Of a stretch of 32,828 nucleotides of DNA, positions 5,256-26,050 are shown in pieces (within the stretch, counting starts at the first letter, position 1; every line of letters begins with the position of its first letter). The notes beneath the pieces were generated by a model, which was given only the letters and a program-made list of their open reading frames with translations, made no database searches and was not told where the DNA came from. The translations under genes were made by a program, and so were the position numbers. Origin of the DNA: a virus; the IMG/VR virus record IMGVR_UViG_3300010413_000109, positions 1-32,828 of that record. One strand, given 5' to 3'.

Positions 5256-6047
5256 CTAGAATAAGTCGCTTATCTCAGACTGAATTTCTGCAACCTTTTC
5301 TTCATCTGGTTGTATAACAGATTCTACGTCACTTTCTTCTGATGAACCCCTTGCCTTGAAGATTTCGGTAAAAGAAACTCCTTTCATTTTCTTTTCCATC
5401 TCTTCAGGAGTTAGTTTCAATGCTACCCGATCTAGATCAAACAGATCATCTTCCTCGAATTCTACAACATCTCTATTGTCTGTTGGTACGGGTACTGTCT
5501 GATTACCAACTACATGCAAAGCTAGATCAAAATTCCTAACCCCAACTGGTTCTTTATTTTCATCTAAAACAGACTTATCTAAATCATCAATCTGTTCAAA
5601 AACTGTTGCAGCTCTGCTAAAAACTTTAACTTTATTTGTAACATGAGGTTCAATACTAACAATAGACTGCCCACACTCTGAGCAAGCAGCTGGAAACACA
5701 TTACTCACCGGTCTGTTCTCATGTCCACAGTTAGTACAAATTTTAATTGGTGTACGATCAAGTACATTCACAGCACCACGAGGCTGACGAGGAATAAAAC
5801 CTTCTACCTTTCTAGCTTCTTTGTATGCTGATTCAAAATCTCCACCAATATCATCAATAATCTGTCTATTTAATTTACATTGTGGGCAGTCATCTCCTAA
5901 ACATTCTACACCACTACCCATCCAATGTTGATAGTACTTCCTACCACTATCCTGAATAATTCTAATTACGTGTGTACCGGGAGTTAGTTTCAAATACTCC
6001 GTCTTTTTAAAATTACTTGCACCAGTACCTCTCTCAAAAAATGACAT
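5256..6047 (-). CDS. zinc-containing single-stranded DNA-binding protein (gp32-like)
   Basis: The 263-residue protein starts with FFERGTGASNFKKTEYLKL and contains two cysteine groups: Cys49, 54 and 57 (CLGDDCPQC), and a ribbon with Cys104, 107, 122 and 125 (CTNCGH ... CSECG). The C-terminal 50 residues are strongly acidic and end in SDLF, like the partner-binding tails of phage and bacterial SSBs. Location between recA-like and dnaB-like genes supports a role coating single-stranded DNA and recruiting the recombinase and helicase. The family is not proven by sequence; a zinc-ribbon scaffold protein of the replisome is the alternative. The start has AAGGAG upstream. Confidence 0.7.
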   Translation of the reverse strand: MSFFERGTGASNFKKTEYLKLTPGTHVIRIIQDSGRKYYQHWMGSGVECLGDDCPQCKLNRQIIDDIGGDFESAYKEARKVEGFIPRQPRGAVNVLDRTPIKICTNCGHENRPVSNVFPAACSECGQSIVSIEPHVTNKVKVFSRAATVFEQIDDLDKSVLDENKEPVGVRNFDLALHVVGNQTVPVPTDNRDVVEFEEDDLFDLDRVALKLTPEEMEKKMKGVSFTEIFKARGSSEESDVESVIQPDEEKVAEIQSEISDLF

Positions 6048-6049
6048 TT

Positions 6050-6337
6050 CTAATTCTCCTTATTTAATATTTGATTTAATTCGTCCATTGCTTTTGCCTT
6101 TAAATCTTCTAGATAAGTTATGGCATCCATTGGACTTAGTTGATCTAATTTTTCTTTTAGGATAAGATATTTCTTGAAAGTAAGCTCTAAGTTTATCAAC
6201 TGTATGAACCTTACCTTACCAATAAATTTCTCGTCCGTTACCAATTCCTCTGGAATATCACTAAGGACTTCCATAGGTTTGATTACATTGTAATCACTGA
6301 TAAAAAAAGTCCGCTCCACACCTACTGTACGTTTCAT
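6050..6337 (-). CDS. hypothetical protein, 95 aa
   Basis: I do not recognise this protein. The first 45 residues alternate basic and hydrophobic positions. The C-terminal half is a charged helix (LILKEKLDQLSPMDAITYLE and on) that could dimerise. It starts with ATG inside the ATGA overlap with the recA-like gene, preceded by AGGAGG, so it should be well translated. Its place between the recombinase and the SSB-like gene hints at a recombination mediator (a UvsY-like role), which is inference from position only. Confidence 0.65.
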   Translation of the reverse strand: MKRTVGVERTFFISDYNVIKPMEVLSDIPEELVTDEKFIGKVRFIQLINLELTFKKYLILKEKLDQLSPMDAITYLEDLKAKAMDELNQILNKEN

Positions 6338-7386
6338 TCAACCTCCTTTTCTAAGTTTTCTATATTATACTCTATTTCTTCTTCGATGTCAAGCTTTTCT
6401 TTTGTTTTGTTTATGTTACTCAAACATTTATCCTTTATTTCTTTCTTCAATTCATCATGTTCTTTTAGATATGCTATTGATTTTTCAATACCCTGCCCTA
6501 GTTGTGTATCTTCATAGTAGTAATAAGCAGCTCTCTTTCTTAGTATTCCCATTTCTTCAGCGAATAGAATTAAGTCTCTATAATAATCTATCCCTTCTCC
6601 AAACATCAAAGGGAAATCAAAGCTTCTGAATGGAGGCGATAATTTATTTTTCTTTATAGTAAACTTGCATTGCATACCAATTATATCTTTATCCTGCTTA
6701 ATCTTCTGTCCAGCAGAAAGAAATATAATTATAGAAGAATAATGTTTTAGTGCGTGTCCACCGGGAAGAGTGTACCCTTGGATGTAGCCACCTATCTTAT
6801 CTCTAACCTGATTGACAAATAAAAGTGCTACATCATTCTTGCGTAAATCAAACATATTCCTTCTGAAAAAAGATGTTAAAGTACGTGCTGTTAGTGCTAC
6901 ATTATGATCTGTTAATTCTTTTTCTTTTTCTATTTCTGGTGCTAAAGCTGCTACGGAATCTATTATTATTAATTTATACTGTCCGGGGTCTATCTTTAAT
7001 TTCTTGTCTCCTTGTATAAGTACTTCAACTAAACCAAGTGCCTCCTCTGAGGTCTCTGGTTGTGCTATAAGTAACTTATCCAAATCAAATTTACCTACTA
7101 AAGTTTCTACATAATTATAATCTAAACCCTGTTCTACGTCAATATAGGCTACATTGTCTCCACCCTCAATAGCGTTCCTAGCAATCTCTAAGCATAGTGT
7201 GGTTTTACCAGAACTTTCTGCACCATAAACAGTAGTTACTCTTCTCTTAGGTATGCCCCCTATTCCTGTAGATACGTCTAAAGAAAGAGAGCCTGTTGAT
7301 ATTGTCTCAACTACATCGTCTATTTCCCTGTCCAGTAAAATTCTTTCGTATTTGTCTTTTAACTTATCGACTATACTACTTTCCAT
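6334..7386 (-). CDS. recA: RecA-like recombinase
   Basis: About 350 residues long, with Walker A GAESSGKT (about residues 55-62), Walker B LIIIDSVAAL, the conserved FVNQVRDKIG and the GGHALKHYSS segment, all typical of RecA. It should form filaments on single-stranded DNA and drive strand exchange for recombination-dependent replication and repair. It lacks a long acidic C-terminal tail of the bacterial kind, but ends in a Lys/Glu-rich helix. I start it at the ATG at 7386, just after AAGG; a GTG two codons upstream (7392) is also possible. The start overlaps the end of the upstream small gene. Confidence 0.93.
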   Translation of the reverse strand: MESSIVDKLKDKYERILLDREIDDVVETISTGSLSLDVSTGIGGIPKRRVTTVYGAESSGKTTLCLEIARNAIEGGDNVAYIDVEQGLDYNYVETLVGKFDLDKLLIAQPETSEEALGLVEVLIQGDKKLKIDPGQYKLIIIDSVAALAPEIEKEKELTDHNVALTARTLTSFFRRNMFDLRKNDVALLFVNQVRDKIGGYIQGYTLPGGHALKHYSSIIIFLSAGQKIKQDKDIIGMQCKFTIKKNKLSPPFRSFDFPLMFGEGIDYYRDLILFAEEMGILRKRAAYYYYEDTQLGQGIEKSIAYLKEHDELKKEIKDKCLSNINKTKEKLDIEEEIEYNIENLEKEVE

Positions 7387-7576
7387 ATTCACCTTGTACC
7401 ACTACGTAATATTCATTATCCAAATGTTGTACCTCCTCTAACGGTCTAAGAGAAACTACTAACTTTTTTAAATCATAATTTCTATCATCCGTTATAATAA
7501 TTTCTCCACTCTTCCCTAAAGTGAATTTATATAATTCATTCGTATCTACGTGCCTAACAACACATACTCTTCTCAT
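7376..7576 (-). CDS. hypothetical protein, 66 aa
   Basis: A small, probably all-beta protein (MRRVCVVRHVDTNELYKFTL at the start) with no recognised motif. It lies between the polymerase and recombinase genes, has AAGGAG before its ATG and overlaps the recombinase start by about 10 bp. Function unknown. Confidence 0.65.
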   Translation of the reverse strand: MRRVCVVRHVDTNELYKFTLGKSGEIIITDDRNYDLKKLVVSLRPLEEVQHLDNEYYVVVQGEYGK

Positions 7577-7590
7577 ATTTTATCTCCTTG

Positions 7591-9489
7591 TTATCCTTTA
7601 CTCCAATGATCCTCTATTACTGCTTCAACTTCTACTGGCATAGAATGTATAAATTTCTCACCAGCTTTTATCATTTCATTCTTAGCAAACTCAGCAGCTT
7701 CTATCACAATATCCTCGGAAACTTCAAACCCTATTTCGTCATGTCCTTGTGTAACTAATTTAAATTTATCACCAAAAGGATTGTTATAATGACAATAACA
7801 CATTGCTAACTTAGTCATATCAGCACCAGTACCTTGAATTGGATGATTGAAACCTTCTCTCTTGACTTTACCTAAATATTTTATGTAGTCTCCGCCATCA
7901 ATAAACTTATCTCTAGGTTCAAAATACCTACGTCTACCAGCCATAGTTACTGAATAACCAGTCTCAACTACTTTATTTTCAAAAGCTGTTCTGAAAGAAA
8001 CAAATCTTGGCATCCCACCAAAAACTGCTAACATTATTCTTGTAGCTTCTTTCAATGTTATGCCAAGTCTGAACTTCAAACCACGTTCATCAATGCCATA
8101 AAACAAACCAAAGTTGATTGCTTTAGCTGCCTGTCTCTGTTCTTTTGTAACTTCTTCAATTGGTATATTATTTACAAGAGCTGCTGTAACAATGTGCATA
8201 TCTTTACCAGCATTATAAGCATCTATAATGTTTTGCTCTCCTGTAAACTCACCAATAATTCTATATTCTTGTTGAGAGTAGTCTATAGTGAGAAACTTAT
8301 TTCCAGATTCAGCCTCGAAACAGGCACGGTATTCACTAATAGCGGGAATATTTTGCATATTTGGATTTTTACAAGCCAATCTACCTGATGCTGTACCGTA
8401 CTGATGGTACTCGGCGTGAATGCGACCCGTCTTAGGATGAATTCTGGAAGTAAATTCCTCACCATATGTTGAAACTTTTTTTGCAAACTCTCTATATTTT
8501 ACAATATTTTCTGTAACTGGAAATTCTTCATAATGTTTTTTTAATGTAGCTGCTAAAGTATCCTGTACTTCAATTCCAGATAACAGCAATAAATTTTTCA
8601 TTTGTACATTAGAATCTATATTTAAATTTTCATAAATATAATTCTTAGCTAAAGTAACGTCTTTTACTTTTTCTAATTCTGTACTTCTTTTCTTAGCTCT
8701 TAAGTTCTTTCCTTCTTTATCTTTGAAAATACCTATGGCTATTGTAGCTTCTAGGAGATTTGGATACTTAGAAAAATCTACCCCATCCATAAAGAAATCT
8801 TTTACTATTTTTTCTTCAGCATCTGCCTTCTCTTGGTAAAGCTTAGCCATACCATTCCATTTATCAGCATTAAGATAGACACCATTAAGTTCCATCTGTG
8901 CTAATACTGGTAAGAATTTCATTTCTAATTGAAGAATTTTTTCTTGCTTAGAATTAATAATTTCTTCTAGCTGTTTATCACGAATAAGCTTAAGATATTT
9001 TAAATCATCAGCTGCATATTCATAATGTTCTTCTTTTAGTACTAAATTAGGATCAGTAAAATCTAATCTAATTCCTTTCTCTATATCAACATTGGCATAT
9101 TTTTTAACTAAATACTTTAAACCCGGATACTTAGTACCTTTACCATTAGTACAAATTATTTCAGAAATAAAAGTACAATAAACATTATCCAATAGAATAC
9201 CTAAATTAGATTTAATTAATTTAACATCATACTTAGCATTCTGTATAACACAAGTCTTACCTGAATTTTTAATCAGCTCCATAATATATATTTTAAATTT
9301 ATTATCTATCTTTCTATAATTAAATATATAGGTCTGATTATTAACTAATACTTGTAATAGAACTATTTTATCAGTAAGGGTATCTAAACCAGTAGTTTCA
9401 GTATCTAAATAAATAATATCTGTTAGACCTAAATCCTTTTGAAACTCTCCCAAACCTTTTGTAATATCCTCTACTAAAACGTAGCTCAT
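7591..9489 (-). CDS. polA: family A DNA polymerase with 3'-5' exonuclease
   Basis: The 632-residue polymerase has an active-looking proofreading domain: ExoI LDTET at 28-32, ExoII IQNAKYD at 82-88, ExoIII YAADD at 158-162. The polymerase domain has TASGRLACKNPNMQNIP around 366-382, motif A TIDYSQQEYR at 401-410 (Asp403), motif B RQAAKAINFGLFYG at 452-465 (Lys456, Phe460) and motif C QGHDEIGFEV at 581-590 with the catalytic Asp584. There is no 5'-3' nuclease domain. The position matching E. coli Phe762 is Phe, not the Tyr of T7 or the Leu found in some phages. This is the replicative polymerase and the first gene of the leftward operon, behind a long structured leader. AAGGAG precedes the ATG. 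Confidence 0.97.
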   Translation of the reverse strand: MSYVLVEDITKGLGEFQKDLGLTDIIYLDTETTGLDTLTDKIVLLQVLVNNQTYIFNYRKIDNKFKIYIMELIKNSGKTCVIQNAKYDVKLIKSNLGILLDNVYCTFISEIICTNGKGTKYPGLKYLVKKYANVDIEKGIRLDFTDPNLVLKEEHYEYAADDLKYLKLIRDKQLEEIINSKQEKILQLEMKFLPVLAQMELNGVYLNADKWNGMAKLYQEKADAEEKIVKDFFMDGVDFSKYPNLLEATIAIGIFKDKEGKNLRAKKRSTELEKVKDVTLAKNYIYENLNIDSNVQMKNLLLLSGIEVQDTLAATLKKHYEEFPVTENIVKYREFAKKVSTYGEEFTSRIHPKTGRIHAEYHQYGTASGRLACKNPNMQNIPAISEYRACFEAESGNKFLTIDYSQQEYRIIGEFTGEQNIIDAYNAGKDMHIVTAALVNNIPIEEVTKEQRQAAKAINFGLFYGIDERGLKFRLGITLKEATRIMLAVFGGMPRFVSFRTAFENKVVETGYSVTMAGRRRYFEPRDKFIDGGDYIKYLGKVKREGFNHPIQGTGADMTKLAMCYCHYNNPFGDKFKLVTQGHDEIGFEVSEDIVIEAAEFAKNEMIKAGEKFIHSMPVEVEAVIEDHWSKG

Positions 9490-11017: not shown

Positions 11018-11218
11018 ATGAAACCTAAACTCAAAGGTAGAAACTGGTGGGGAAGAAGAACAAAAACCAGTTGGAGTGCTGGATGTAAGACACACTCCGA
11101 TATTTTGAGAATAAACGAATCTAATCAACAAGTAAAAGATTTTATGATAGGAGATAGTATTGTCAAAACACAAGAGAACAATAAGTCCGAAGAGTCTCAG
11201 AAATCTTCCTCAATATAA
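11018..11218 (+). CDS. small basic protein, 66 aa
   Basis: The gene has an excellent AAAGGAGG site before its ATG. The protein begins with a basic, Trp-rich stretch (MKPKLKGRNWWGRRTKTSWS) that may bind nucleic acid, followed by a polar tail rich in Asn, Ser and Lys. Its last 59 bp overlap the next gene in another frame, and both genes have convincing ribosome binding sites. Function unknown. Confidence 0.6.
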   Translation: MKPKLKGRNWWGRRTKTSWSAGCKTHSDILRINESNQQVKDFMIGDSIVKTQENNKSEESQKSSSI

Positions 11219-11864
11219 AGATTTGAGTGATGATGAATTTCTAAAAGTAATAGACGCTAGAAAAGAAGAGTATGAGACAGCACCTCTTGGTGAAGACTTT
11301 GAGGAAAGGATTGAAAACAAAATAGATGAACTTACGGAAGATTATGATCTTTCTGATATGAAATCAAATGATCTTCTAATACTCAGGGCTTTAGCACAAA
11401 GCTTAATTTCATTAGAAGACTTTGAATTATTAGCTTATGAAGAGCGTCAGAATATTGACGCTAACAATCTTATGACTGTTGATAAGGTACAGAAGATCAT
11501 TTCTGATTTAAGAAGAGATATTTCTAATCAACAAACTGATTTAAAGATTAGTCGTAAGATTAGAAAGAGTGATGACAGGGAGGATGTTATCCAAACTGTG
11601 GAGTTACTTAAGGAGAAAGCACAAAAGTTTTATAAACAAAAAATGGCTTATATAGTATGTCCTGCATGTGATATGCTTTTAGCCACTCTCTGGGTACAAT
11701 ATCCAGAAGTTGATAATGAACTTACTTTTGTTTGTAATAGAAGGAAAGGAGGAGAAGAGCCAGAGGTTTTATGTAATCATAAGTTTACAGTATATACTAA
11801 AGACTTATGGGCTACTAAAGAAGTTACCAATAAACCAGAGGTTCTTCCAGAAAGTATAACTTAA
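11160..11864 (+). CDS. putative terminase small subunit / packaging accessory protein
   Basis: The start is TTG at 11160, behind AGGAG. The 234-residue protein has the segment SLRNLPQYKDLSDDEFLKVI near the N-terminus, a helical middle with many charges (residues 60-165), and a C-terminal zinc-like region with CPACD, a later VCNRR and LCNH. The N-terminal phrase resembles those of some small terminase subunits of environmental phages, but I am recalling style, not a proven match. Genes for sugar metabolism separate it from the large terminase at 17945, which is unusual. A DNA-binding regulator is the alternative. Confidence 0.45.
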   Translation: MSKHKRTISPKSLRNLPQYKDLSDDEFLKVIDARKEEYETAPLGEDFEERIENKIDELTEDYDLSDMKSNDLLILRALAQSLISLEDFELLAYEERQNIDANNLMTVDKVQKIISDLRRDISNQQTDLKISRKIRKSDDREDVIQTVELLKEKAQKFYKQKMAYIVCPACDMLLATLWVQYPEVDNELTFVCNRRKGGEEPEVLCNHKFTVYTKDLWATKEVTNKPEVLPESIT

Positions 11865-12805
11865 TGTGGTATATAGTATCTAGAATAGGAATAGATTACG
11901 CAGCTTTCTATCCAATTTATGTACTTAGTAAACATATGAAAGCTAAGTATATGAATTATTTAGAGGCTAAAGACACTAATTTTTCTGGTGCAAATGTTAT
12001 TTTACATTGTGTGTGGAAAAAGAATCAATATGATGCTTGGAAAACTTTGCCTGAAAAAATAAAAAAAGAAGCTAAAAATCTCTGGGTAGAGTTTGATGCT
12101 GATAGTCATTTAGATAAATTATATCAATTAGATAGACCTAAAAATTCTTCACAATTTTTTCAAAAGACATTTGCACCAGTAGATAAATTTATCTGGGAAG
12201 AACCATTATTCTATAATCCTTTTGTTAGACCTGTAGAGAGAATACAATTACGTTGTTATCACAAGGAATTTGAGAAACCAATCTCAGCAATTAAAGATAT
12301 AGATTTTTTCACTTGCTTAGATACTGATAAAAATATTTCTGAAACAATTACTTTATTTACAGAATTAAAAAAAGCTGGACATAGTATTTGTTTTATGATA
12401 TTGAATCAAAATCTTTTTAATTTCTATAAAGATAAACTTCCTTTTCCAATTATAACAAATGAATTAAAATTCTCAAATAATTCTATTCAGAGATTTAATC
12501 ATCTAATGCAAAGGAGTAAAGTATATGTGGACTTATCTTATAGGCTTACTACTGGTAGGGTGGTTTATGATGCTAGTTTTTATGGTGCATATTTTGTTGG
12601 GAGCAATACTTACGGTGCTACTGATGTTTTATTTCCAGAGTATTCCTTAACTACTTATCCAGTAGATTTGACTAAAACTTTTGAATATTGTGAGAGAGCT
12701 TTATCAGATTGGACTAAGGAAAAAATTGTAGAAAAAAGAAATCAACTTAGAACTCACGCTAATGTAGATTTATTTATAAAGGAGTTAGAAGAAAGGAGTA
12801 AGTGA
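11864..12805 (+). CDS. GT-B-like glycosyltransferase
   Basis: The 313-residue protein looks like a divergent GT-B glycosyltransferase. The C-terminal part has a stretch like the nucleotide-sugar site of GT4-type enzymes: SKVYVDLSYRLTTGRVVYDA, then SFYGAYFVGSNTYGATDVLFP, where family members usually have TGR..EA...G.PVV.S...G. The N-terminal half (FYPIYVLSKHMKAKYMNYLE) has the Rossmann-like order of strands. The sugar and acceptor cannot be read from sequence. It starts with ATG overlapping the previous stop (taATG) and lies ahead of the nonulosonic acid cassette, so it probably works with it on virion or cell-surface glycans. Confidence 0.65.
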   Translation: MWYIVSRIGIDYAAFYPIYVLSKHMKAKYMNYLEAKDTNFSGANVILHCVWKKNQYDAWKTLPEKIKKEAKNLWVEFDADSHLDKLYQLDRPKNSSQFFQKTFAPVDKFIWEEPLFYNPFVRPVERIQLRCYHKEFEKPISAIKDIDFFTCLDTDKNISETITLFTELKKAGHSICFMILNQNLFNFYKDKLPFPIITNELKFSNNSIQRFNHLMQRSKVYVDLSYRLTTGRVVYDASFYGAYFVGSNTYGATDVLFPEYSLTTYPVDLTKTFEYCERALSDWTKEKIVEKRNQLRTHANVDLFIKELEERSK

Positions 12806-13268: not shown

Positions 13269-13456
13269 CAGATTTAGAAAAACAATTTGTGATGTTGCTT
13301 GGTTATTTTATTTATAAATATTGTGATGGAAAGCCAGCAGAGTTAGACCACGATGGTTTTATTAATTTTATGGATAAAAATCCTCAGTTAGAAAGAATGG
13401 ATCAAGAGCTAACTTCTTATTATAAGGTAAGTTTTAATGAAGGTCCTATTCATTAG
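13244..13456 (+). CDS. hypothetical protein, 70 aa
   Basis: AAGGAG lies at a good distance before the ATG at 13244, which is inside the end of the previous gene. The protein is acidic and helical (DLEKQFVMLLGYFIYKYCDG) with no known motif. It overlaps the metalloprotease gene by 20 bp. Confidence 0.6.
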   Translation: MEEKPREVTDLEKQFVMLLGYFIYKYCDGKPAELDHDGFINFMDKNPQLERMDQELTSYYKVSFNEGPIH

Positions 13457-13880
13457 TTTGTTATTGTTGAGTATTTCAATTATTGATCCATTTTCTACAG
13501 ATTCTGCAAATAATTTTGCAGAAGAAATGCAACCTTATTTTGGAGTACCCACTAATTGGCAGATAAAAGATTTAGGTAGTTGGTGGTCTGCTACTTTAGC
13601 AGTTGGTGATCCTCTTGTTTGTACTACCACAGTATATCTTTCTCCTAAGTGGAAAACAGAACAAAGTGCTCTTTGGAAATATACACTAGCCCATGAGTGG
13701 GCACACGTAAAACAGGGAAAGAGATGTGTAAACAATGAACATAGTGCTGATATAATTGCACTAACTAGTTTAGCTAAAGCTGGTGAATGGGGTGCTTTTA
13801 TAATAGGTGCGAACTGGCTAATGGACACAGGACAATTTACTATGAATGAAATAGTTAATATTGTGAAAGGAGTTAAGTGA
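13437..13880 (+). CDS. secreted HExxH (gluzincin-type) metalloprotease
   Basis: The 147-residue protein begins with a signal peptide-like sequence (Lys2, hydrophobic core at residues 3-17). The catalytic motif is H86-E-W-A-H90 within TLAHEWAHVKQG. Downstream, E101-H-S-A-D105 (NNEHSADIIAL) fits the ExxxD segment of gluzincins such as M48, where Glu supplies the third zinc ligand. Cys62 and Cys97 could form a disulphide, consistent with an extracytoplasmic location. The product should be exported or membrane-anchored and cleave proteins at the cell surface. It lies just before the nonulosonic acid cassette. It may act on host surface proteins, or be a moron unrelated to virion assembly. Length is short for full M48 peptidases. 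Confidence 0.75.
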   Translation: MKVLFISLLLLSISIIDPFSTDSANNFAEEMQPYFGVPTNWQIKDLGSWWSATLAVGDPLVCTTTVYLSPKWKTEQSALWKYTLAHEWAHVKQGKRCVNNEHSADIIALTSLAKAGEWGAFIIGANWLMDTGQFTMNEIVNIVKGVK

Positions 13881-13993
13881 TGATAACAAGTAAGAATATT
13901 GGCAAAATCCGCAGGTTTCTTTTTGTACCTTGGCGATCAAGGTGGAACGCATGGGTAAGAGATATTACAGCCATGCTTGAAAGGAGTACATAA
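13880..13993 (+). CDS. 37-aa Arg/Trp-rich micropeptide
   Basis: A short gene with GAAAGGAG upstream; its ATG overlaps the stop of the protease gene (tgATG) and its TAA overlaps the next ATG (taATG). The peptide MITSKNIGKIRRFLFVPWRS and on contains five Arg and three Trp residues in a potential amphipathic helix. Exact start-stop overlaps on both sides argue that it is real. It resembles cationic membrane-active peptides in composition, but no function is known. Confidence 0.6.
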   Translation: MITSKNIGKIRRFLFVPWRSRWNAWVRDITAMLERST

Positions 13994-14637
13994 TGGAAAT
14001 TGATTATAGAGCATATAGTGGTGCTATTTATGATATTATAAAATTTAAACTAGGTTACTCAGAAAATTTTGTATTACCTAATGATATAAAAAATTTAATC
14101 GAACCTAAATATGGTAAAGAAAAGTTTATTTTTGGTAAAGCATTTACAGCAAGGGGAGATAAAACAAAATATCCTAACATAGAAATCATTAGCGAAATGG
14201 TAGATGAAGTAGACGAAGGAGATGTTTATATTCTACAGGCTAATGATAATAGTCGTGCTCACTTTGGAGACATAATGGCACACTTTCTAAAAAGAAATGG
14301 TGCAGAAGGAGCTATCTTACAGGGCTGGACTAGAGATTTAGGTAGAATAGAATATATTGGTTTTCCACTTTGGGCTAAAGGAGTACAACCACAAGACTCT
14401 TCTGATATATGGAGTATCTCTAGTTACTTAGAAGAAATAGTAATTGGTAATATTTTTATTACACCGAGAGATTATATATTTGCAGATAGAGATGCTGTTT
14501 TAATTATCAGAGATTTTCTTGTGCTTGATCTCTTAGCAGAACTTCCTGATAAATTAGATTATGAAGCTGAGATAAGAAAAGAAATTAGCACGGGAACAAG
14601 TGCTAAAGAAATTTATAATGAAATAGGTAGGTGGTGA
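13993..14637 (+). CDS. RraA-like / HMG aldolase-family protein
   Basis: The 214-residue protein matches the RraA / 4-hydroxy-4-methyl-2-oxoglutarate aldolase family (PF03737). It has AHFGDIMAHFLKRNGAEGAI at residues 89-108, then QGWTRDLGRIEYIGFPLWAKG with the family Gly-x-x-Arg-Asp (Arg114, Asp115) and the final FP..AKGV.P segment. Family members bind Mg and can act as class II aldolases on oxo acids. Being first in a cassette with NeuB- and NeuA-like genes, it may take part in making or trimming an oxo-acid sugar precursor; this is inference. The extended N-terminal 45 residues are unlike RraA. Regulation of RNase E is unlikely, since the host may lack that enzyme. Confidence 0.8.
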   Translation: MEIDYRAYSGAIYDIIKFKLGYSENFVLPNDIKNLIEPKYGKEKFIFGKAFTARGDKTKYPNIEIISEMVDEVDEGDVYILQANDNSRAHFGDIMAHFLKRNGAEGAILQGWTRDLGRIEYIGFPLWAKGVQPQDSSDIWSISSYLEEIVIGNIFITPRDYIFADRDAVLIIRDFLVLDLLAELPDKLDYEAEIRKEISTGTSAKEIYNEIGRW

Positions 14638-15530
14638 TGACACAGTTTGTAGCAGAATTTACAACAAATCATATGGGAAATTATAATGTACTTGAAGAAA
14701 TGGTTAGACAAGCAAAGTTTGCGGGTGCAGACTTTATTAAAATGCAAAAGAAAGATGTTGAAAATTATTATTCTAAGGAAAAGTTGGATAGATTTTTCTT
14801 ATCACCCTACGGTAAAACGTACAGAGACTATAGGAAAATATTTGAATTTGGTAAAGAGGACTTCGATAGATTTAATTCATTGTGTAAAGAATTAAAAATC
14901 AAATGGTTCTCTACGGTACAAGATATTCCATCCTTAGAGTTTATGTTAGAATATAATTTACCTAAATATAAAATAGCATCTTCTAGTGCTAGAGATTTAG
15001 ATTTTATTTCTGAATTAGAAAAACAAGTTACTAAGCGTTCACAAATAGTAGTATCTGTTGGAGGTTCTACTCTAAAAGAAATTGATAGTCTTCTGAAAAC
15101 TTTAGGAGATAGAAGAATAGTCTTGCAACATTGCGTTGCAGAATATCCTTGTTCTATGTCTAGATTACGATTAGGAAATATTCAGAAACTAAAAGATGAA
15201 TTTGAAACTACAAAAGTAAAGATAGGATATTCTGGGCATGAAGTAGGAATTATCCCATCAGTAGTTGTAGCTAAGAAATATAAACCAGAATTAATAGAAA
15301 GACATTTTGCTTTGTCTAGACATTCTTTTGTACATCATATTGAATGTAGTTTAGAACCTGAAGAGTTTAAACAAATGATAAAGGAAAGTAATGATCCAAA
15401 TGTAGAATATAATATACCAGATATTGCTTTCTCTACATCTTTCGGTATGAGTAAGGTTGAAGAAAACTTTCTTTTAGAACAAACTTATGGCAATAAGTAC
15501 TTAGGAAGTACAAGTGATTGGACAGAGTAG
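14637..15530 (+). CDS. neuB: NeuB-like nonulosonic (sialic) acid synthase
   Basis: About 297 residues, with the NeuB TIM-barrel signatures: VAEFTTNHMGN at the start, GADFIKMQ with the catalytic Lys, PKYKIASSSARD, VLQHCVAEYPCS, IGYSGHEVG and ERHFALS. The two His residues (about 201 and 223) match the metal-binding His pair of NeuB. The C-terminal antifreeze-like (SAF) domain of cellular enzymes is missing. It should condense phosphoenolpyruvate with an N-acetylated hexose to form a nine-carbon acid. The ATG at 14637 overlaps the stop of the RraA-like gene; in-frame GTGs just upstream are less likely. Which sugar is made (sialic, legionaminic, pseudaminic or another) cannot be told. Confidence 0.85.
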   Translation: MTQFVAEFTTNHMGNYNVLEEMVRQAKFAGADFIKMQKKDVENYYSKEKLDRFFLSPYGKTYRDYRKIFEFGKEDFDRFNSLCKELKIKWFSTVQDIPSLEFMLEYNLPKYKIASSSARDLDFISELEKQVTKRSQIVVSVGGSTLKEIDSLLKTLGDRRIVLQHCVAEYPCSMSRLRLGNIQKLKDEFETTKVKIGYSGHEVGIIPSVVVAKKYKPELIERHFALSRHSFVHHIECSLEPEEFKQMIKESNDPNVEYNIPDIAFSTSFGMSKVEENFLLEQTYGNKYLGSTSDWTE

Positions 15531-16065
15531 GATAGACGTACTCAGGAGAGCTGTTAAAGAAATAACTCTTGATGGTTTAATTCTAGAGTTTGGAGTATAT
15601 ACTGGAGGTACTGCAAAAATACTTTCTAAATTACTACCAGATAAAACAATTTATGGCTTCGATAGTTTTGAGGGTTTACCTGAAGATTGGTATGGTAAGT
15701 ATACTAAAGGTACTTTTAATCTAAGAGGAATTATTCCAAAGCTACCTAAAAATGTTATACCAATAAAAGGAAGATTTGAAACTACAATTGGTCCTTTTTT
15801 GAGAGAACACCAACAAGATAAAGTTGCTTTTATAAACTTTGATGCAGACCTTTATTTACCAACAGCTACTGTTATAGATGTTTTACTTCTATGGGAAAGA
15901 ATAGTGCCGGGTACAGTTTTATACTTTGATGAATTTATTTCTAAGAGTTATTCAGACGAGTTCAGGGCTTTTATAGAATATGGTATTCCAGTTAAATTAA
16001 TAAGTTACTGGTGGTTAGAGGATTCTTATTCTAGTTTTGCTTTCAAGGTGATAAATAATGGATAA
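15514..16065 (+). CDS. TylF-like SAM-dependent O-methyltransferase
   Basis: The 183-residue protein has motif I GLILEFGVYTGGTAKILSKL, then TIYGFDSFEGLPEDWYG and KVAFINFDADLYLPT, followed by VPGTVLYFDEF. These are hallmarks of the macrocin O-methyltransferase (TylF/MycF) family, which uses SAM and a metal near the DxD. Members methylate hydroxyls on sugars or other small molecules. In this cassette the probable substrate is the sugar or the transferred glycan. The start is GTG, within the end of the NeuB-like gene. Confidence 0.85.
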   Translation: MIGQSRIDVLRRAVKEITLDGLILEFGVYTGGTAKILSKLLPDKTIYGFDSFEGLPEDWYGKYTKGTFNLRGIIPKLPKNVIPIKGRFETTIGPFLREHQQDKVAFINFDADLYLPTATVIDVLLLWERIVPGTVLYFDEFISKSYSDEFRAFIEYGIPVKLISYWWLEDSYSSFAFKVINNG

Positions 16066-16639
16066 ATTTTTCTTTCCTTTAGGTGAACCATATAAGTATG
16101 GAAGGGAATTAAATACTTATATGAAAGAAATTATTGGTAATAAAGTTGTACAAGATAAACATGCTACAGGTTTATTATGCCAAGCAATAGTAAATGCAGG
16201 AGATGGAGACTATGTTGAGATAGGTTCTCTATATGGCGGGTCTGCTATTACAGCTTTACTGACTAAAAGAGTTTTTAATTTGAAAGGAAATATTTATTGT
16301 GTAGACCCAAATCCTAAAGAGATTTTAGAAAATGCAAAATTATTTGGTTTGAAAGATCGAATAACTATTTTCAAAAGACCTTCTGAAGAAATAATTTGGG
16401 GAGATATGACATTCAGTTGTGGCTTTATAGATGGCGATCATAGAGAACCAAATCCATTATTGGATTGGTATGCTCTTAAAGATAGAGTGACTAGATATAT
16501 TATATTTGATGACTATGATAAATCAGAAACAGGTGTGGTATATGCAGTTAAGGATGTTTTATTAGATTATGAAAGTCCTTGGATGCCTGTACATATTTCT
16601 GATGCAATAGTTATTTTTGAAAGGGATTGGGTATTATGA
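16058..16639 (+). CDS. class I SAM-dependent methyltransferase
   Basis: The 193-residue protein contains GDYVEIGSLYGGSAITALLT (motif I) and GNIYCVDPNPKE (acidic motif II), and SCGFIDGDHREPNPLLDWYA, a Methyltransf_24-like pattern with the FIDGDH motif of small-molecule and sugar methylases. It is a paralogue in fold of the preceding enzyme but not close in sequence. It is likely to methylate the same or a related sugar. It overlaps both neighbours by a few bases (ATGA-type), showing tight coupling. Confidence 0.85.
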   Translation: MDKFFFPLGEPYKYGRELNTYMKEIIGNKVVQDKHATGLLCQAIVNAGDGDYVEIGSLYGGSAITALLTKRVFNLKGNIYCVDPNPKEILENAKLFGLKDRITIFKRPSEEIIWGDMTFSCGFIDGDHREPNPLLDWYALKDRVTRYIIFDDYDKSETGVVYAVKDVLLDYESPWMPVHISDAIVIFERDWVL

Positions 16640-17370
16640 AAGTAGCAGCTGTAGTACATGCTAAAGGAATAAGTGAACGTTTACCTAATAAAAATCTAAG
16701 GAAACTCGGAGGTAAACCTTTAATCTGTCATGCTATCTCAAATGCTTGTAATGCTGAGTTAGTAAATGATGTTTATATAGATAGCGAAGATGATTTAATA
16801 TTAAGGGTTGGTGCAGGTTGTGGTGCTATACCTTTGAAACGACCTCCCTATCTTGCTAACAATCAAATAACTGGAGATGACTTAGCTTATTGGCAAGCAC
16901 AAAGTTTACCACAATATGATATTCTGGTACAGGTTGTACCAACATCTCCATTTATAAAATCAAAAACTATAGACGAATGTATCAGTAATGTAATACTAGG
17001 ATATAATTCAAGCTTCACAGCAACTTCTGAAAAATTATATACTTGGAGTCAAAAAAATCCAACAGAAAGTTTAACCCCAGATTATTATGTAAATGGTAAA
17101 ATTTTAAACTCAAAAGATTTACCGTATATTTTTATAGAACATACAGGATTATTTGCTTTTAAAACTGAATATGCTTTTGAAAAAAGAAAAAGAATTGACC
17201 CTAGAAATTTTAGAGGAGTGCCTATAGATTACATAGAGGCTATAGATATTAATTATGAAAGTGATTTTAAAATTGCGGAGATTATATGGCAGGGATTACA
17301 CAGTTCAAAAACAAATATAAAGGGAGAAGGGGCTTTATTGCTTGCAACGGACCAAGCCTCAATGACATAG
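16636..17370 (+). CDS. neuA: NeuA-like CMP-nonulosonate cytidylyltransferase
   Basis: About 244 residues. It has the cytidylyltransferase signature AVVHAKGISERLPNKNLRKL then GGKPLI, where most homologues have PAR-GS; here His-Ala-Lys-Gly replaces it. It also has QVVPTSPFIKSKTIDE, EHTGLFAFK and the end motif EAIDINYESDFKIAE with the usual Asp. It should activate the nonulosonic acid by joining it to CMP. The ATG at 16636 overlaps the previous stop (ATGA). The 3' end runs 85 bp into the next gene, in another frame. The altered signature may mean a different sugar acid (KDO-like or other) or altered kinetics. Confidence 0.8.
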   Translation: MKVAAVVHAKGISERLPNKNLRKLGGKPLICHAISNACNAELVNDVYIDSEDDLILRVGAGCGAIPLKRPPYLANNQITGDDLAYWQAQSLPQYDILVQVVPTSPFIKSKTIDECISNVILGYNSSFTATSEKLYTWSQKNPTESLTPDYYVNGKILNSKDLPYIFIEHTGLFAFKTEYAFEKRKRIDPRNFRGVPIDYIEAIDINYESDFKIAEIIWQGLHSSKTNIKGEGALLLATDQASMT

Positions 17371-17957
17371 ATGTATCGAAACTTAGGGGAGAAATAGTAT
17401 TCGGACTAAACAGGGGGTATCTAAAGAAAGACCTTCCAATAACTTATTTAGTAACAATAGACGATCTAGTTGAAAATCAATTTAGACAAGAGATGGAAGC
17501 TTTCAAATGCGAGGCTAAGTTTACTCACAGCCTGAGAGGGGAAAATACTTATAAGTTACTCTGGACTAATGATGTACCTAAGTTTAGTCCTAGTATAGCA
17601 GTACCCATTTGGCAAGGACATTCAGTTACTAATGTAGCTTTACAAGTAGCATTTTATATGGGTTTGAATCCAGTTTATATTATAGGTATGGATCATTTTA
17701 TAGATTATAGTGATACCAGCAAAGTAGGTGGGAAATTCGTGAATAGTGGGGAAGATAGAAATCATTTTGATCCTAACTACTTTGCTGGTAAGATTAAATA
17801 TAACCCCCAGAACCTACAGAGAGTAGAGTTAGGTTATAAATTAGCAAGAGAATATTACGAAGGTTCTGGTAGAAAATTATATAATGCCAGTACTAAAACA
17901 AAACTAAGTGAGGAAATAATTCCAAGAATTAATTTTGAAGATATATGGCAATCCTAG
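17286..17957 (+). CDS. DUF115/Maf- or GT42-like glycosyltransferase
   Basis: The 223-residue protein begins GITQFKNKYKGRRGFIACNG, then PSLNDIDVSKL. The GNGPSL-type loop is shared by GT42 sialyltransferases, the DUF115 (6-hydroxymethylpterin-like) family and Maf flagellin glycosyltransferases. NPVYIIGMDHFIDYS follows further on. Such enzymes transfer CMP-activated nonulosonic acids to proteins or glycans, matching the NeuB- and NeuA-like genes before it. The probable role is the final transfer step. The ATG follows GCGGAG, and the stop overlaps the terminase start by 13 bp. The acceptor is unknown; virion protein and surface glycan are both possible. Confidence 0.75.
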   Translation: MAGITQFKNKYKGRRGFIACNGPSLNDIDVSKLRGEIVFGLNRGYLKKDLPITYLVTIDDLVENQFRQEMEAFKCEAKFTHSLRGENTYKLLWTNDVPKFSPSIAVPIWQGHSVTNVALQVAFYMGLNPVYIIGMDHFIDYSDTSKVGGKFVNSGEDRNHFDPNYFAGKIKYNPQNLQRVELGYKLAREYYEGSGRKLYNASTKTKLSEEIIPRINFEDIWQS

Positions 17958-19501
17958 AAAAAGTAACTCATGAAGATTTAATTCTTTTTGAAATACTTCG
18001 CAATCCAGTATTATGTAATGAATTTATTTATAATTATGACACTAAAGAATGGGAAGAAGAATTTGAATTAGACTGGTATCAAAAACAAATTCTATGTGAT
18101 TTCCATTTTCATGTTTCAGTAGCAACAGCCAGAAGTGTTGGTAAAACTGTATCGTTAGTTGCTATTCTTACTTGGCTTGTAATATTTCAAGTATACCCAG
18201 GTTTTGATGTAGTCTACACAGTACCTAGTAGAGTACATTTACAACCTGTTTGGAGAAATTTAATAAGGACTTTTAGATCAAATAGTTTTCTAAGAAATTT
18301 TGTATCTGCAAGTTCTGGTTTCAATAGTTCTACCTTTGAAGTAACTTTATTAAATCACAGCACCATTACCTGTCGTATTGCTGGTACTACGGGGACAGGT
18401 GCAAACGTTATTGGTCTTCACGTACCTTTTGTAATACTAGATGAATCTGGTTACTACCCTTGGGGTACTTGGGTAGAGTTACAACCAATTATAAATCAAT
18501 TTACTAGGGGGTATAGACTAATCACATCTGGTGTACCTACAGGGATACGTGAAAAAAATGTGCTATGGGTTAATGACCAAGAAGATTCAACCTATACTAA
18601 ACATAGTGTATCGGCGTTTGATAATCCTAGATTTACAGAAAAAGATAAACAAGATGCTATAGAAAAATATGGTGGAGAGGATAATGAAGATTATATCCAT
18701 CTAGTATTAGGACAGCATGGCTCTCCAGTATTCTCTATATTTGATAGGAATACTATGCAAATAGATTCTTATCCTGTATATAGATTAGTATTAGATGGTT
18801 TACAACTAAAAGAAAGTTTTGGTAACTATTTACCAAAGTTAGCAGGACTTCCTTCTTTACCTAGTTCAGCAAAAGACGTTTACTTTGGAATAGATTTAGG
18901 TTATACAGACCCTACCGCAATTATAGTTTTCTATTCAATAGCCTCTGGACAATTGAAGTTTCATTGTAGAGTGAGATTGGATAAAGTATCTTATGCAATA
19001 CAGGATAAGATAATAGATAGGCTGGATACCATGTACAAACCTAGAACTCTAGGAGTAGATTGGGGTTCAGCCGGAATAAGTGTTATACAACGCTTACAAG
19101 ATTCAAAAGAATATTTACATAAAGACTACAGAAAGAGAGTAGTACCTATTAATTTTTCTTCACAGATTTCATTAGGATTTGATTCTGATGGAGAAGAAAT
19201 AAAATCTAAAACAAAACCTTTTTCAGTTTCCATTTTACAGGAGTACTCTAACAATCATAAGTTTATCTATTCTTCTACTGATTTAGAATTAATTTCTGAG
19301 TTAGAAAGAATGACTTACTCTAAGACTCCAACTGGTGATTTGATTTATAAAACTCTAACACCAAGGGGAGGACAGAGGGGAGAAGACCATTTTACCGCAG
19401 CTTTATTGTGTGGTAGTATGGCTTATTATTTAGAGCATGAGTATTTTCTTCCTGCCAAAAATGTTACGAAATTGTTCAAAAGTAGGTGGTTAACAGTATG
19501 A
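17945..19501 (+). CDS. terL: terminase large subunit
   Basis: 518 residues. ATPase: Walker A TARSVGKT around residues 61-68, Walker B VPFVILDESGYY around 160-171 with catalytic Glu167. The RNase H-like nuclease has DVYFGIDLGYTDPTA (Asp317), LGVDWGSAG (about 375-383) and GEDHFTAALLCG near 485-495, the three acidic positions expected. It packages DNA into the prohead through the portal and cuts concatemers. The gene starts with ATG inside the end of the glycosyltransferase gene and stops inside the portal start, so sugar and packaging genes share one transcript. Confidence 0.95.
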   Translation: MAILEKVTHEDLILFEILRNPVLCNEFIYNYDTKEWEEEFELDWYQKQILCDFHFHVSVATARSVGKTVSLVAILTWLVIFQVYPGFDVVYTVPSRVHLQPVWRNLIRTFRSNSFLRNFVSASSGFNSSTFEVTLLNHSTITCRIAGTTGTGANVIGLHVPFVILDESGYYPWGTWVELQPIINQFTRGYRLITSGVPTGIREKNVLWVNDQEDSTYTKHSVSAFDNPRFTEKDKQDAIEKYGGEDNEDYIHLVLGQHGSPVFSIFDRNTMQIDSYPVYRLVLDGLQLKESFGNYLPKLAGLPSLPSSAKDVYFGIDLGYTDPTAIIVFYSIASGQLKFHCRVRLDKVSYAIQDKIIDRLDTMYKPRTLGVDWGSAGISVIQRLQDSKEYLHKDYRKRVVPINFSSQISLGFDSDGEEIKSKTKPFSVSILQEYSNNHKFIYSSTDLELISELERMTYSKTPTGDLIYKTLTPRGGQRGEDHFTAALLCGSMAYYLEHEYFLPAKNVTKLFKSRWLTV

Positions 19502-24732: not shown

Positions 24733-24899
24733 TGCACGAAGAATGGCACGGTTTATGTATTTATTGTATGCTTAGGATTTTTACACCAGTGGTAATAACT
24801 ATTTTTATCAGCTGGTTTCTAAATAAAATTTGTGGTGAAAGGAATGGAGAAAAATGGAACAAGAACGAAAACGAATCCTCTGGATTTCCGATGGAGTAA
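24732..24899 (+). CDS. 55-aa single-helix membrane protein
   Basis: ATG 24732 overlaps the TAA of the connector gene (taATG) and follows GGGAGA. The peptide has three Cys residues in the first 35 positions (GLCIYCML, and later KICGE), one hydrophobic helix (RIFTPVVITIFISWFL) and a polar Asn/Glu-rich tail. Its end overlaps the next gene by 46 bp. It may localise or assist the glycosyltransferase encoded next; no function is proven. Confidence 0.55.
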   Translation: MHEEWHGLCIYCMLRIFTPVVITIFISWFLNKICGERNGEKWNKNENESSGFPME

Positions 24900-26050
24900 C
24901 TCCTACAGGATTTTCAAGAGTAGCACATTCGATCATTAAAAATTTAGATTCTGAAATTTTTCAAGTAATGCACTTGGCTATAAACTATTGGGGTGATCCA
25001 CATCCTAATAATTGGATGATATTTCCAGCACCAATTAGAGGAAATATTTATGGTATAGATAGAGTAAAAGAATTCAAGACAGCTAAAGTTGATATGATTT
25101 TTATTCTAAATGATCTCTGGATGATCAATGAATACCTAAAAGAAATCAAAAAACATTTTGATCCTGTACCTCCAATAGTAATTTATTTTCCAGTAGATGC
25201 AGAAGAGTTTGATAGAGTTTGGTTTGAGAATTTTGATATTGTTACACAGGCTGTAGTTTATACACACTTTGGCTATGATGTAGCTAAGAAAGTAGCACCA
25301 GAGGGAGTTGATTTTGAAATCATCCCTCATGGTATTGATACAGAAATTTTCTATAAACTAATGATGCCAAAGCAAGAACTAAGAAAAATTTCTTATCCAA
25401 ACAATGAAGACTTATGGGAAGAAGATTCTTTTGTTGTATTAAATGCAAATAGAAATCAACCTAGAAAAAGATTAGATTTAGCTCTAGAAGGTTTTTCTTT
25501 ATTTGCTAAAGATAAGCCAACAAATGTCAGATATTATCATCACGCTGGAATAAGAGATGTCGGTTGGAACATTCCTAAACTAGCAGAAAGATATGGAATT
25601 TCTAAAAGACTTCTGCTAACTAGTATGGAAGAAGGTGTTCAGAAGATACCAGAAAATCGTTTAAATTTAGTTTATAATAGTACGGACGTTGGCTTAAATA
25701 CTAGCATGGGAGAAGGTTGGGGTCTTCCTAGTATGGAACATGCTATTACTGGTGCACCGCAGGTAGTATCAGATAATAGTGCGAGTAGAGAATTATATAG
25801 TGATATTGGTTTATTAATTCCTACTAGCATGAATCAAACTTTTGAAAGAATTGAAACCGTAGGTACTGTAGTAAGACCAGAAGATGTAGCTGCTCAATTA
25901 CAAAAACTTTACGAAGATAAAGAACTATACAATGAATTATCAATAAAAGGTATAGAAAAATTTTCCAAGCCCGAATATAATTGGGCTAATATCGCAGAGC
26001 AATGGAGCGAAATCTTTAAGAGAGTAATGGGAATAAATGAAAATAGTTGA
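24854..26050 (+). CDS. GT4-family glycosyltransferase
   Basis: The 398-residue enzyme has both GT-B Rossmann halves. The N-terminal part begins RILWISDGVTPTGFSRVAHS; EIIPHGIDTEIFY marks the domain boundary; RNQPRKRLDLALEGFSLF follows; and the C-terminal site is NTSMGEGWGLPSMEHAITGA with PQVVSDNSASRELY, where the two Glu residues match the ExxxxxxxE motif of GT4. It transfers a nucleotide-activated sugar to an unknown acceptor. Its position between head-tail connector and tail genes suggests it glycosylates virion proteins. It lies outside the nonulosonate cassette and may work with or independently of it. Confidence 0.9.
   Translation: MEQERKRILWISDGVTPTGFSRVAHSIIKNLDSEIFQVMHLAINYWGDPHPNNWMIFPAPIRGNIYGIDRVKEFKTAKVDMIFILNDLWMINEYLKEIKKHFDPVPPIVIYFPVDAEEFDRVWFENFDIVTQAVVYTHFGYDVAKKVAPEGVDFEIIPHGIDTEIFYKLMMPKQELRKISYPNNEDLWEEDSFVVLNANRNQPRKRLDLALEGFSLFAKDKPTNVRYYHHAGIRDVGWNIPKLAERYGISKRLLLTSMEEGVQKIPENRLNLVYNSTDVGLNTSMGEGWGLPSMEHAITGAPQVVSDNSASRELYSDIGLLIPTSMNQTFERIETVGTVVRPEDVAAQLQKLYEDKELYNELSIKGIEKFSKPEYNWANIAEQWSEIFKRVMGINENS

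Follow-up and report, generated by a model that had tools for sequence, protein, structure and literature searches.

A viral gene cassette pairing an RraA-like protein with a His-His NeuB-like synthase, predicted to build an atypical ulosonic acid

We analyzed a 32,828-nt (32.8 kb) stretch of DNA, a fragment of a tailed-phage genome, from source record IMGVR_UViG_3300010413_000109; this whole stretch is called the window below. At 13993-17957 it carries six open reading frames (ORFs), all on the + strand and overlapping end to start, which run into the terminase large subunit gene (terL) and then the portal gene. They encode an RraA-like protein, a NeuB-like synthase, two S-adenosylmethionine (SAM) methyltransferases, a NeuA-like cytidine monophosphate (CMP)-sugar synthetase, and a DUF115/MptE-like protein. 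We propose, with a probability of about 0.55, that this cassette directs the synthesis, activation, methylation, and transfer of an atypical ulosonic acid by a route involving a phosphorylated acceptor and a pyruvate aldolase. The genes belong to the enzyme families named, keep their catalytic residues, are linked to one another, and evolve under purifying selection.

The NeuB-like synthase lacks the SAF domain and carries a His-His motif

The NeuB-like protein, of 297 amino acids (aa), belongs to family PF03102, on which it scored 162 bits against a curated cut-off of 22.1. It retains the phosphoenolpyruvate (PEP) and metal residues of Neisseria meningitidis NeuB, having equivalents of E25, K53, Q55, T110, K129, S132, Y186, S213, H215, E234, and H236. 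Its C terminus lies about 45 aa past the matched barrel, and both the SAF domain and Arg314 are absent; changing Arg314 to Ala abolishes the activity of meningococcal NeuB (PMC6795526). In addition, Pro246-Asp247 of the meningococcal enzyme is replaced by His233-His234 in the window synthase. Every synthase with this His-His motif terminates similarly, soon after the barrel, and the D247 position is His throughout their clade. In the meningococcal structure, the Pro246-Asp247 position presumably faces the acceptor. The best-scoring equivalog models were NCBIfam NeuB (TIGR03569; 141 bits versus a cut-off of 399.65) and pseudaminic acid synthase PseI (TIGR03586; 125 bits versus 340.25), both far below their cut-offs. 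With neither the SAF domain nor its essential Arg present, and with His in place of D247, the enzyme may make a different ulosonic acid, perhaps one that does not have nine carbons.

RraA-like genes adjoin His-His NeuB genes in viruses and in most bacterial loci

Viral contigs were scanned with a NeuB-only query that contained no RraA sequence but had been built largely from RraA-linked NeuBs, which yielded 81 NeuBs with readable context, including those of the window and of a second contig, L002. RraA adjoined NeuB in 16/16 His-His cases versus 0/65 cases without His-His. After dereplication at 80% identity the figures were 10/10 versus 0/50 (Fisher, 1.3e-11). The His-His NeuBs group into what is essentially a single clade (support, 1.0), which includes one HY-type member. 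Across this clade there is variation in phage backbone, in gene order, in NeuA subtype, and in the type of transferase (DUF115-like or GT29-like). Phage sequences are intermingled with bacterial ones in the tree, phages L048/L049 grouping with Pelagibacter (0.96) and L051 with an Oscillospiraceae genome (0.84), which suggests several transfers. The core RraA-NeuB-NeuA was found again in unrelated phages, with either a DUF115-like enzyme or one resembling GT29 (sialyltransferase) alongside. In a collection of named phages, two distant NeuBs were found and RraA was not. A preliminary description of the window had taken the RraA-like gene as a hint at a modified or new sugar acid, and the strict viral association of RraA with His-His NeuB strengthens that idea.

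In bacteria, an exact-pattern scan of 84,980 genomes returned 14 loci, 13 of which encode a His-His NeuB. RraA lies directly upstream of NeuB in 10 of the 13, and a histidine phosphatase is present in 11. One such locus, RraA-NeuB-NeuA-phosphatase (L034), belongs to a cultured strain, Eilatimonas milleporae DSM 25217. Four clade surveys for the His-His NeuB each recovered the seed genome alone (1/337, 1/194, 1/347, and 1/300), which marks the cassette as rare and sporadic in its distribution. In two alphaproteobacterial loci (L033 and L036, both at about 7100-8000), a gene that by eye resembles a short-chain dehydrogenase occupies RraA's place before the His-His NeuB.

RraA is fused to CMP-sugar synthetases elsewhere and is most likely a pyruvate aldolase

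In marine viral contigs L131-L156, a CMP-sugar synthetase (PF02348) and RraA (PF03737) are the N-terminal and C-terminal domains of one ORF, about 430 aa long, as at L142:5122-6429 and L131:5131-6420, and in several of these contigs a DUF115-like gene comes next. NeuB was not found in 11 RraA-bearing records tested alongside three NeuB-bearing positive controls, some of the records being fragments; 6 of the 11 carry a gene of the 3-deoxy-D-arabino-heptulosonate 7-phosphate (DAHP)/3-deoxy-D-manno-octulosonate 8-phosphate (KDO8P) synthase family. The idea that KdsA replaces NeuB in the fusion phages was weakened, since in the two such phages read, L158 and L159, KdsA is paired with a KdsB-like gene of its own and lies some 11-13 kb away from the fusion. 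These adjacent KdsA-like/KdsB-like genes (L158:984-2391 and L159:1586-3005) form a probable CMP-Kdo module. On L160, where RraA is unfused, 5448-9371 encodes RraA, a ribulose-phosphate epimerase, a DAHP synthase, and a thiamine-diphosphate enzyme; the DAHP/KDO8P-family gene lies two genes from RraA, beside the epimerase, and RraA is thus again joined to a PEP-dependent synthase. A protein resembling the RuBisCO large chain (PF00016, 2e-36) is encoded near the fusion gene at L155:9923-11110.

Across 15 RraA relatives, R114, D115, and E191 of the window protein are invariant and D93 is nearly so. They correspond to R123, D124, E199, and D102 of 4-hydroxy-4-methyl-2-oxoglutarate/4-carboxy-4-hydroxy-2-oxoadipate (HMG/CHA) aldolase, a class II pyruvate aldolase of the RraA fold (PDB 3NOJ), in which they are the Arg/acidic metal and pyruvate residues (PMC5065237). 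The cassette protein differs from that enzyme in forming a distinct subfamily with a Gly-Arg-Trp end and in its linkage to ulosonate genes. Aldolase-type models outscored those of the RNase E regulator RraA, whose cut-offs were missed by far (NF006875, 37 bits versus 136; TIGR02998, 23.7 versus 241). Class II pyruvate aldolase activity is the most likely function of the protein. That the gene instead encodes a host-takeover inhibitor of RNase E, with no connection to the sugar genes, would suit the fold and name of the family, but this is very improbable given the order of the model scores, the conserved metal and pyruvate residues, the constant position beside viral His-His NeuBs, and the fusion to CMP-synthetases in other viruses.

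The NeuA-like protein belongs to PF02348 (51 bits versus a cut-off of 22.6) and conserves the nucleotide-binding motif A-K-x-x-S-x-R-x-P-x-K-N. A profile built from six NeuA relatives matched solved CMP-N-acetylneuraminic acid synthetases at 4e-28 to 1e-18. Its best NCBIfam model was PseF (6e-21; 75 bits versus a cut-off of 205.7), with KdsB models lower, so that no equivalog assignment was reached. The PseF match, together with the PF03102 match and the best models of the synthase, NeuB and PseI, would fit an ordinary nonulosonic route, in which NeuB uses a host hexosamine (N-acetylmannosamine [ManNAc] or a di-N-acetyl hexose), the product is activated by NeuA, and RraA is an accessory that takes no part in forming the sugar. 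We consider that route improbable: the equivalog scores are far under the cut-offs, there is no SAF domain and hence no Arg314, D247 is His throughout the clade, and RraA adjoins every viral His-His NeuB and is fused to a CMP-synthetase elsewhere. The preliminary description had inferred sugar synthesis based on NeuB and NeuA; the gene identities and the logic of CMP-ulosonate synthesis and transfer hold, but the features just listed speak against a sugar of the sialic, legionaminic, or pseudaminic type.

The cassette is a conserved part of the phage

All six genes recur in identical order, at 64-85% identity, in L002 (IMGVR_UViG_3300027917_000048, a 64.8 kb contig). Their ratios of nonsynonymous to synonymous substitution rates (dN/dS) are 0.08-0.25, compared with 0.07 for terL, which indicates purifying selection, and the G+C content of the cassette agrees with that of the rest of the phage. 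These features mark the cassette as functional in the phage and not as debris, and contamination or an assembly artefact was ruled out by the same order in a second contig, the matching composition, and the purifying selection. A search for a defence function gave no PADLOC matches.

The coordinates of the locus are collected in Table 1. As the preliminary description had it, six overlapping genes of the named families precede terL. Three points are revised. The likelier start codons are ATG 14637 for neuB and ATG 16636 for neuA; the transferase gene overlaps neuA by 85 nt, which is kept in L002; and two glycosyltransferases outside the six genes also belong to the picture. A transcript shared with terL, which had been stated as a fact, is plausible from the overlaps and from the lack of a terminator-like site on the + strand.

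Table 1. Genes of the cassette and its surroundings
Feature	Position	Strand	Evidence and remarks
Border gene, left edge of glycan slot	11160..11864	+	234 aa; 83% identical in L002, 47% in L004
GT4-type glycosyltransferase-like	11864..12805	+	PF00534 E 0.00085, below cut-off
RraA-like, probable class II pyruvate aldolase	13993..14637	+	PF03737 9e-24
NeuB-like synthase, SAF-less, His-His (H233-H234)	14637..15530	+	PF03102 2e-47
TylF-like SAM methyltransferase	15514..16065	+	PF05711 9e-11; Methyltransf_24 3e-7; phrog_6608 methyltransferase 3e-26
SAM methyltransferase (Methyltransf_24)	16058..16639	+	PF13578 1e-8
NeuA-like CMP-sugar synthetase	16636..17370	+	PF02348 (CTP_transf_3) 2e-13
DUF115/MptE-like, probable CMP-ulosonate transferase	17286..17957	+	PF01973 3e-8, 33.9 bits vs cut-off 34.6
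terL, right border of slot	17945..19501	+	phrog_2 1.5e-16, terminase large subunit; next gene is portal
Second GT4-type glycosyltransferase, structural block, probable partner	24854..26050	+	phrog_2170 3e-41; PF13524 and PF00534 above cut-off

The border-gene protein had no Pfam or PHROG matches, and its position suggests a packaging gene. In the unrelated phage L021, a 36% homologue of the first glycosyltransferase lies directly upstream of RraA-NeuB, and the cassette of L021 also holds a 45% homologue of the second methyltransferase; the AlphaFold model of that glycosyltransferase was too poor for use. Between it and the cassette, 13437-13880 encodes a small protein, possibly a zinc peptidase, whose start is signal-like and which contains an HExxH-type motif (HEWAH); it is also conserved in L002.

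The cassette occupies an exchangeable glycan slot that points to virion glycosylation

Relatives whose terL is 54-64% identical carry unrelated sugar genes directly before it: GT11, a cytidylyltransferase-like gene, SIS, GT25, and two GT2 genes in L004; FkbM, GT10, SIS, and GT25-like genes in L009; and a nucleoside diphosphate (NDP)-sugar epimerase and a GT2 gene in L012. Because these sugar genes differ while the left border gene stays in L004, the interval is an exchangeable glycan slot. The glycosyltransferase of the structural block is conserved in L003, L014, and L004 (57% in the last) despite the swapped slot.

The DUF115/MptE-like protein is a single domain of 223 aa, and its homologues adjoin NeuB/RraA both in phage L021 and at three bacterial loci, L031, L032, and L040. 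The best fold match of its model (mean predicted local distance difference test score, 61) was a 6-hydroxymethyl-7,8-dihydropterin pyrophosphokinase (HPPK) of the MptE type, at a weak E value of 0.003. Maf members of the DUF115 family O-glycosylate flagellin (PMC11339370, PMC4065374).

The preliminary description had left it open whether the sugar decorates virions or masks infected cells. Genomic context favours decoration of virions, and masking is less favoured. Since no flippase or polymerase was seen in the slot, the probable transferase is DUF115-like, and a fixed glycosyltransferase lies in the structural block, we favour glycosylation of a virion protein. The same sugar chemistry could be aimed at the host surface, where a changed O-chain or capsule would block superinfection or the re-adsorption of progeny; this is the usual reading of lipopolysaccharide (LPS)-type genes of marine phages (PMC7029224, PMC5332604). 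Here it seems less likely: the slot lies inside the packaging/structural block, where late expression would be expected; neither a flippase nor a polymerase family turned up; the fixed glycosyltransferase stands among structural genes; and the DUF115-like enzyme suggests a protein as acceptor. Hypermodification of the phage DNA with the sugar is less probable still than even an RNase E inhibitor, and CMP-ulosonates are not known to serve as donors to DNA. Some phages do glycosylate their DNA (e.g., PMC6024577), but no base-hydroxymethylating or DNA-glucosyltransferase family appeared among the window genes scanned, the record being a fragment.

Proposed pathway

We infer which acceptor is used, what RraA catalyses, when methylation takes place, and where the sugar is attached as follows. 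The His-His NeuB would condense PEP with a sugar different from ManNAc, probably an aldose in phosphorylated form, whose phosphate would be taken off by the histidine phosphatase that accompanies most bacterial and some phage copies, and by a host-supplied one in the case of the window phage. As a metal-dependent pyruvate aldolase, the RraA-like protein would make or trim the acceptor or the acid itself. The NeuA-like enzyme would form the CMP-sugar, the cassette methyltransferases would add one or two methyl groups to the sugar, and the DUF115/MptE-like enzyme would transfer it in the cytoplasm, most likely to a virion protein, as Maf does on flagellin.

Four observations weigh against this proposal. 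No phosphatase and no acceptor-making enzyme were present among the window genes scanned. RraA is missing from the vicinity of three of the 13 bacterial His-His loci, and in two of these a dehydrogenase-like gene occupies its position. The His-His NeuBs are one clade, so their association with RraA does not count independent events. Finally, SAF loss, which we had considered as the hallmark of the variant and rejected, is common among the other viral NeuBs found, most of which likewise lack the domain, and says little alone.

Discussion

The cassette shares with the bacterial nonulosonic pathways (NeuB/LegI/PseI plus NeuA/LegF/PseF) a PEP-dependent synthase of the NeuB fold that retains the PEP and metal residues, and after it a CMP-sugar synthetase, but it has no SAF domain, His-His for Pro-Asp, an RraA-like partner, and no acceptor-making enzymes in the window. 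Like the mammalian Neu5Ac-9-P, KDN-9-P, and KDO-8-P synthase routes, most bacterial and some phage copies combine a phosphatase with the synthase, and KDO8P synthases also lack a SAF domain. The cassette differs from these phosphorylated-acceptor routes in that the synthase is of the NeuB and not the KdsA family, the phosphatase is of the histidine and not the haloacid dehalogenase (HAD) type, RraA is extra, and the phosphorylated acceptor is a prediction. The last cassette gene appears to fall, in a broad sense, into the family of the Maf transferases that act on flagellin with nonulosonates (DUF115/MptE-like), which likewise have CMP-ulosonate genes as neighbours, although its product is short, single-domain, and just below the Pfam cut-off.

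Phage sugar genes including NeuA and KdsA were already known, and the LPS/capsule sets that lie in hypervariable regions of marine phages (pelagimyophages and ocean virus genomes with NeuA and KdsA) likewise contain variable sugar genes, among them CMP-sugar enzymes (PMC5332604, PMC7029224). The present cassette differs from those sets in combining synthesis, activation, methylation, and transfer, in its defined slot directly before terL, and in the RraA/His-His NeuB pair. No paper linking RraA with nonulosonic acids was found in the literature searched, a scope outside which most subscription journals fell; an RraA-linked sugar-acid pathway seems not to have been described before.

Taken more broadly, the cassette could represent a new branch of ulosonate biosynthesis, in which a SAF-less His-His NeuB works with an RraA-type aldolase (and, in cells, a histidine phosphatase), present in phages and scattered bacteria, with a marine version that fuses RraA to the CMP-synthetase, and yielding a new acidic sugar on virions. 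We offer this wider view tentatively, at somewhat less than an even chance. Because Eilatimonas milleporae DSM 25217 carries RraA-NeuB-NeuA-phosphatase, the chemistry could be tested without the uncultured phage. If true, the finding would add an enzyme type to ulosonic acid biosynthesis and would provide a sequence rule for the variant, a His-His NeuB with an adjoining RraA, in places where annotation reads sialic acid synthase and RNase regulator. It would also give a tractable example of an acidic sugar that phages produce for themselves.

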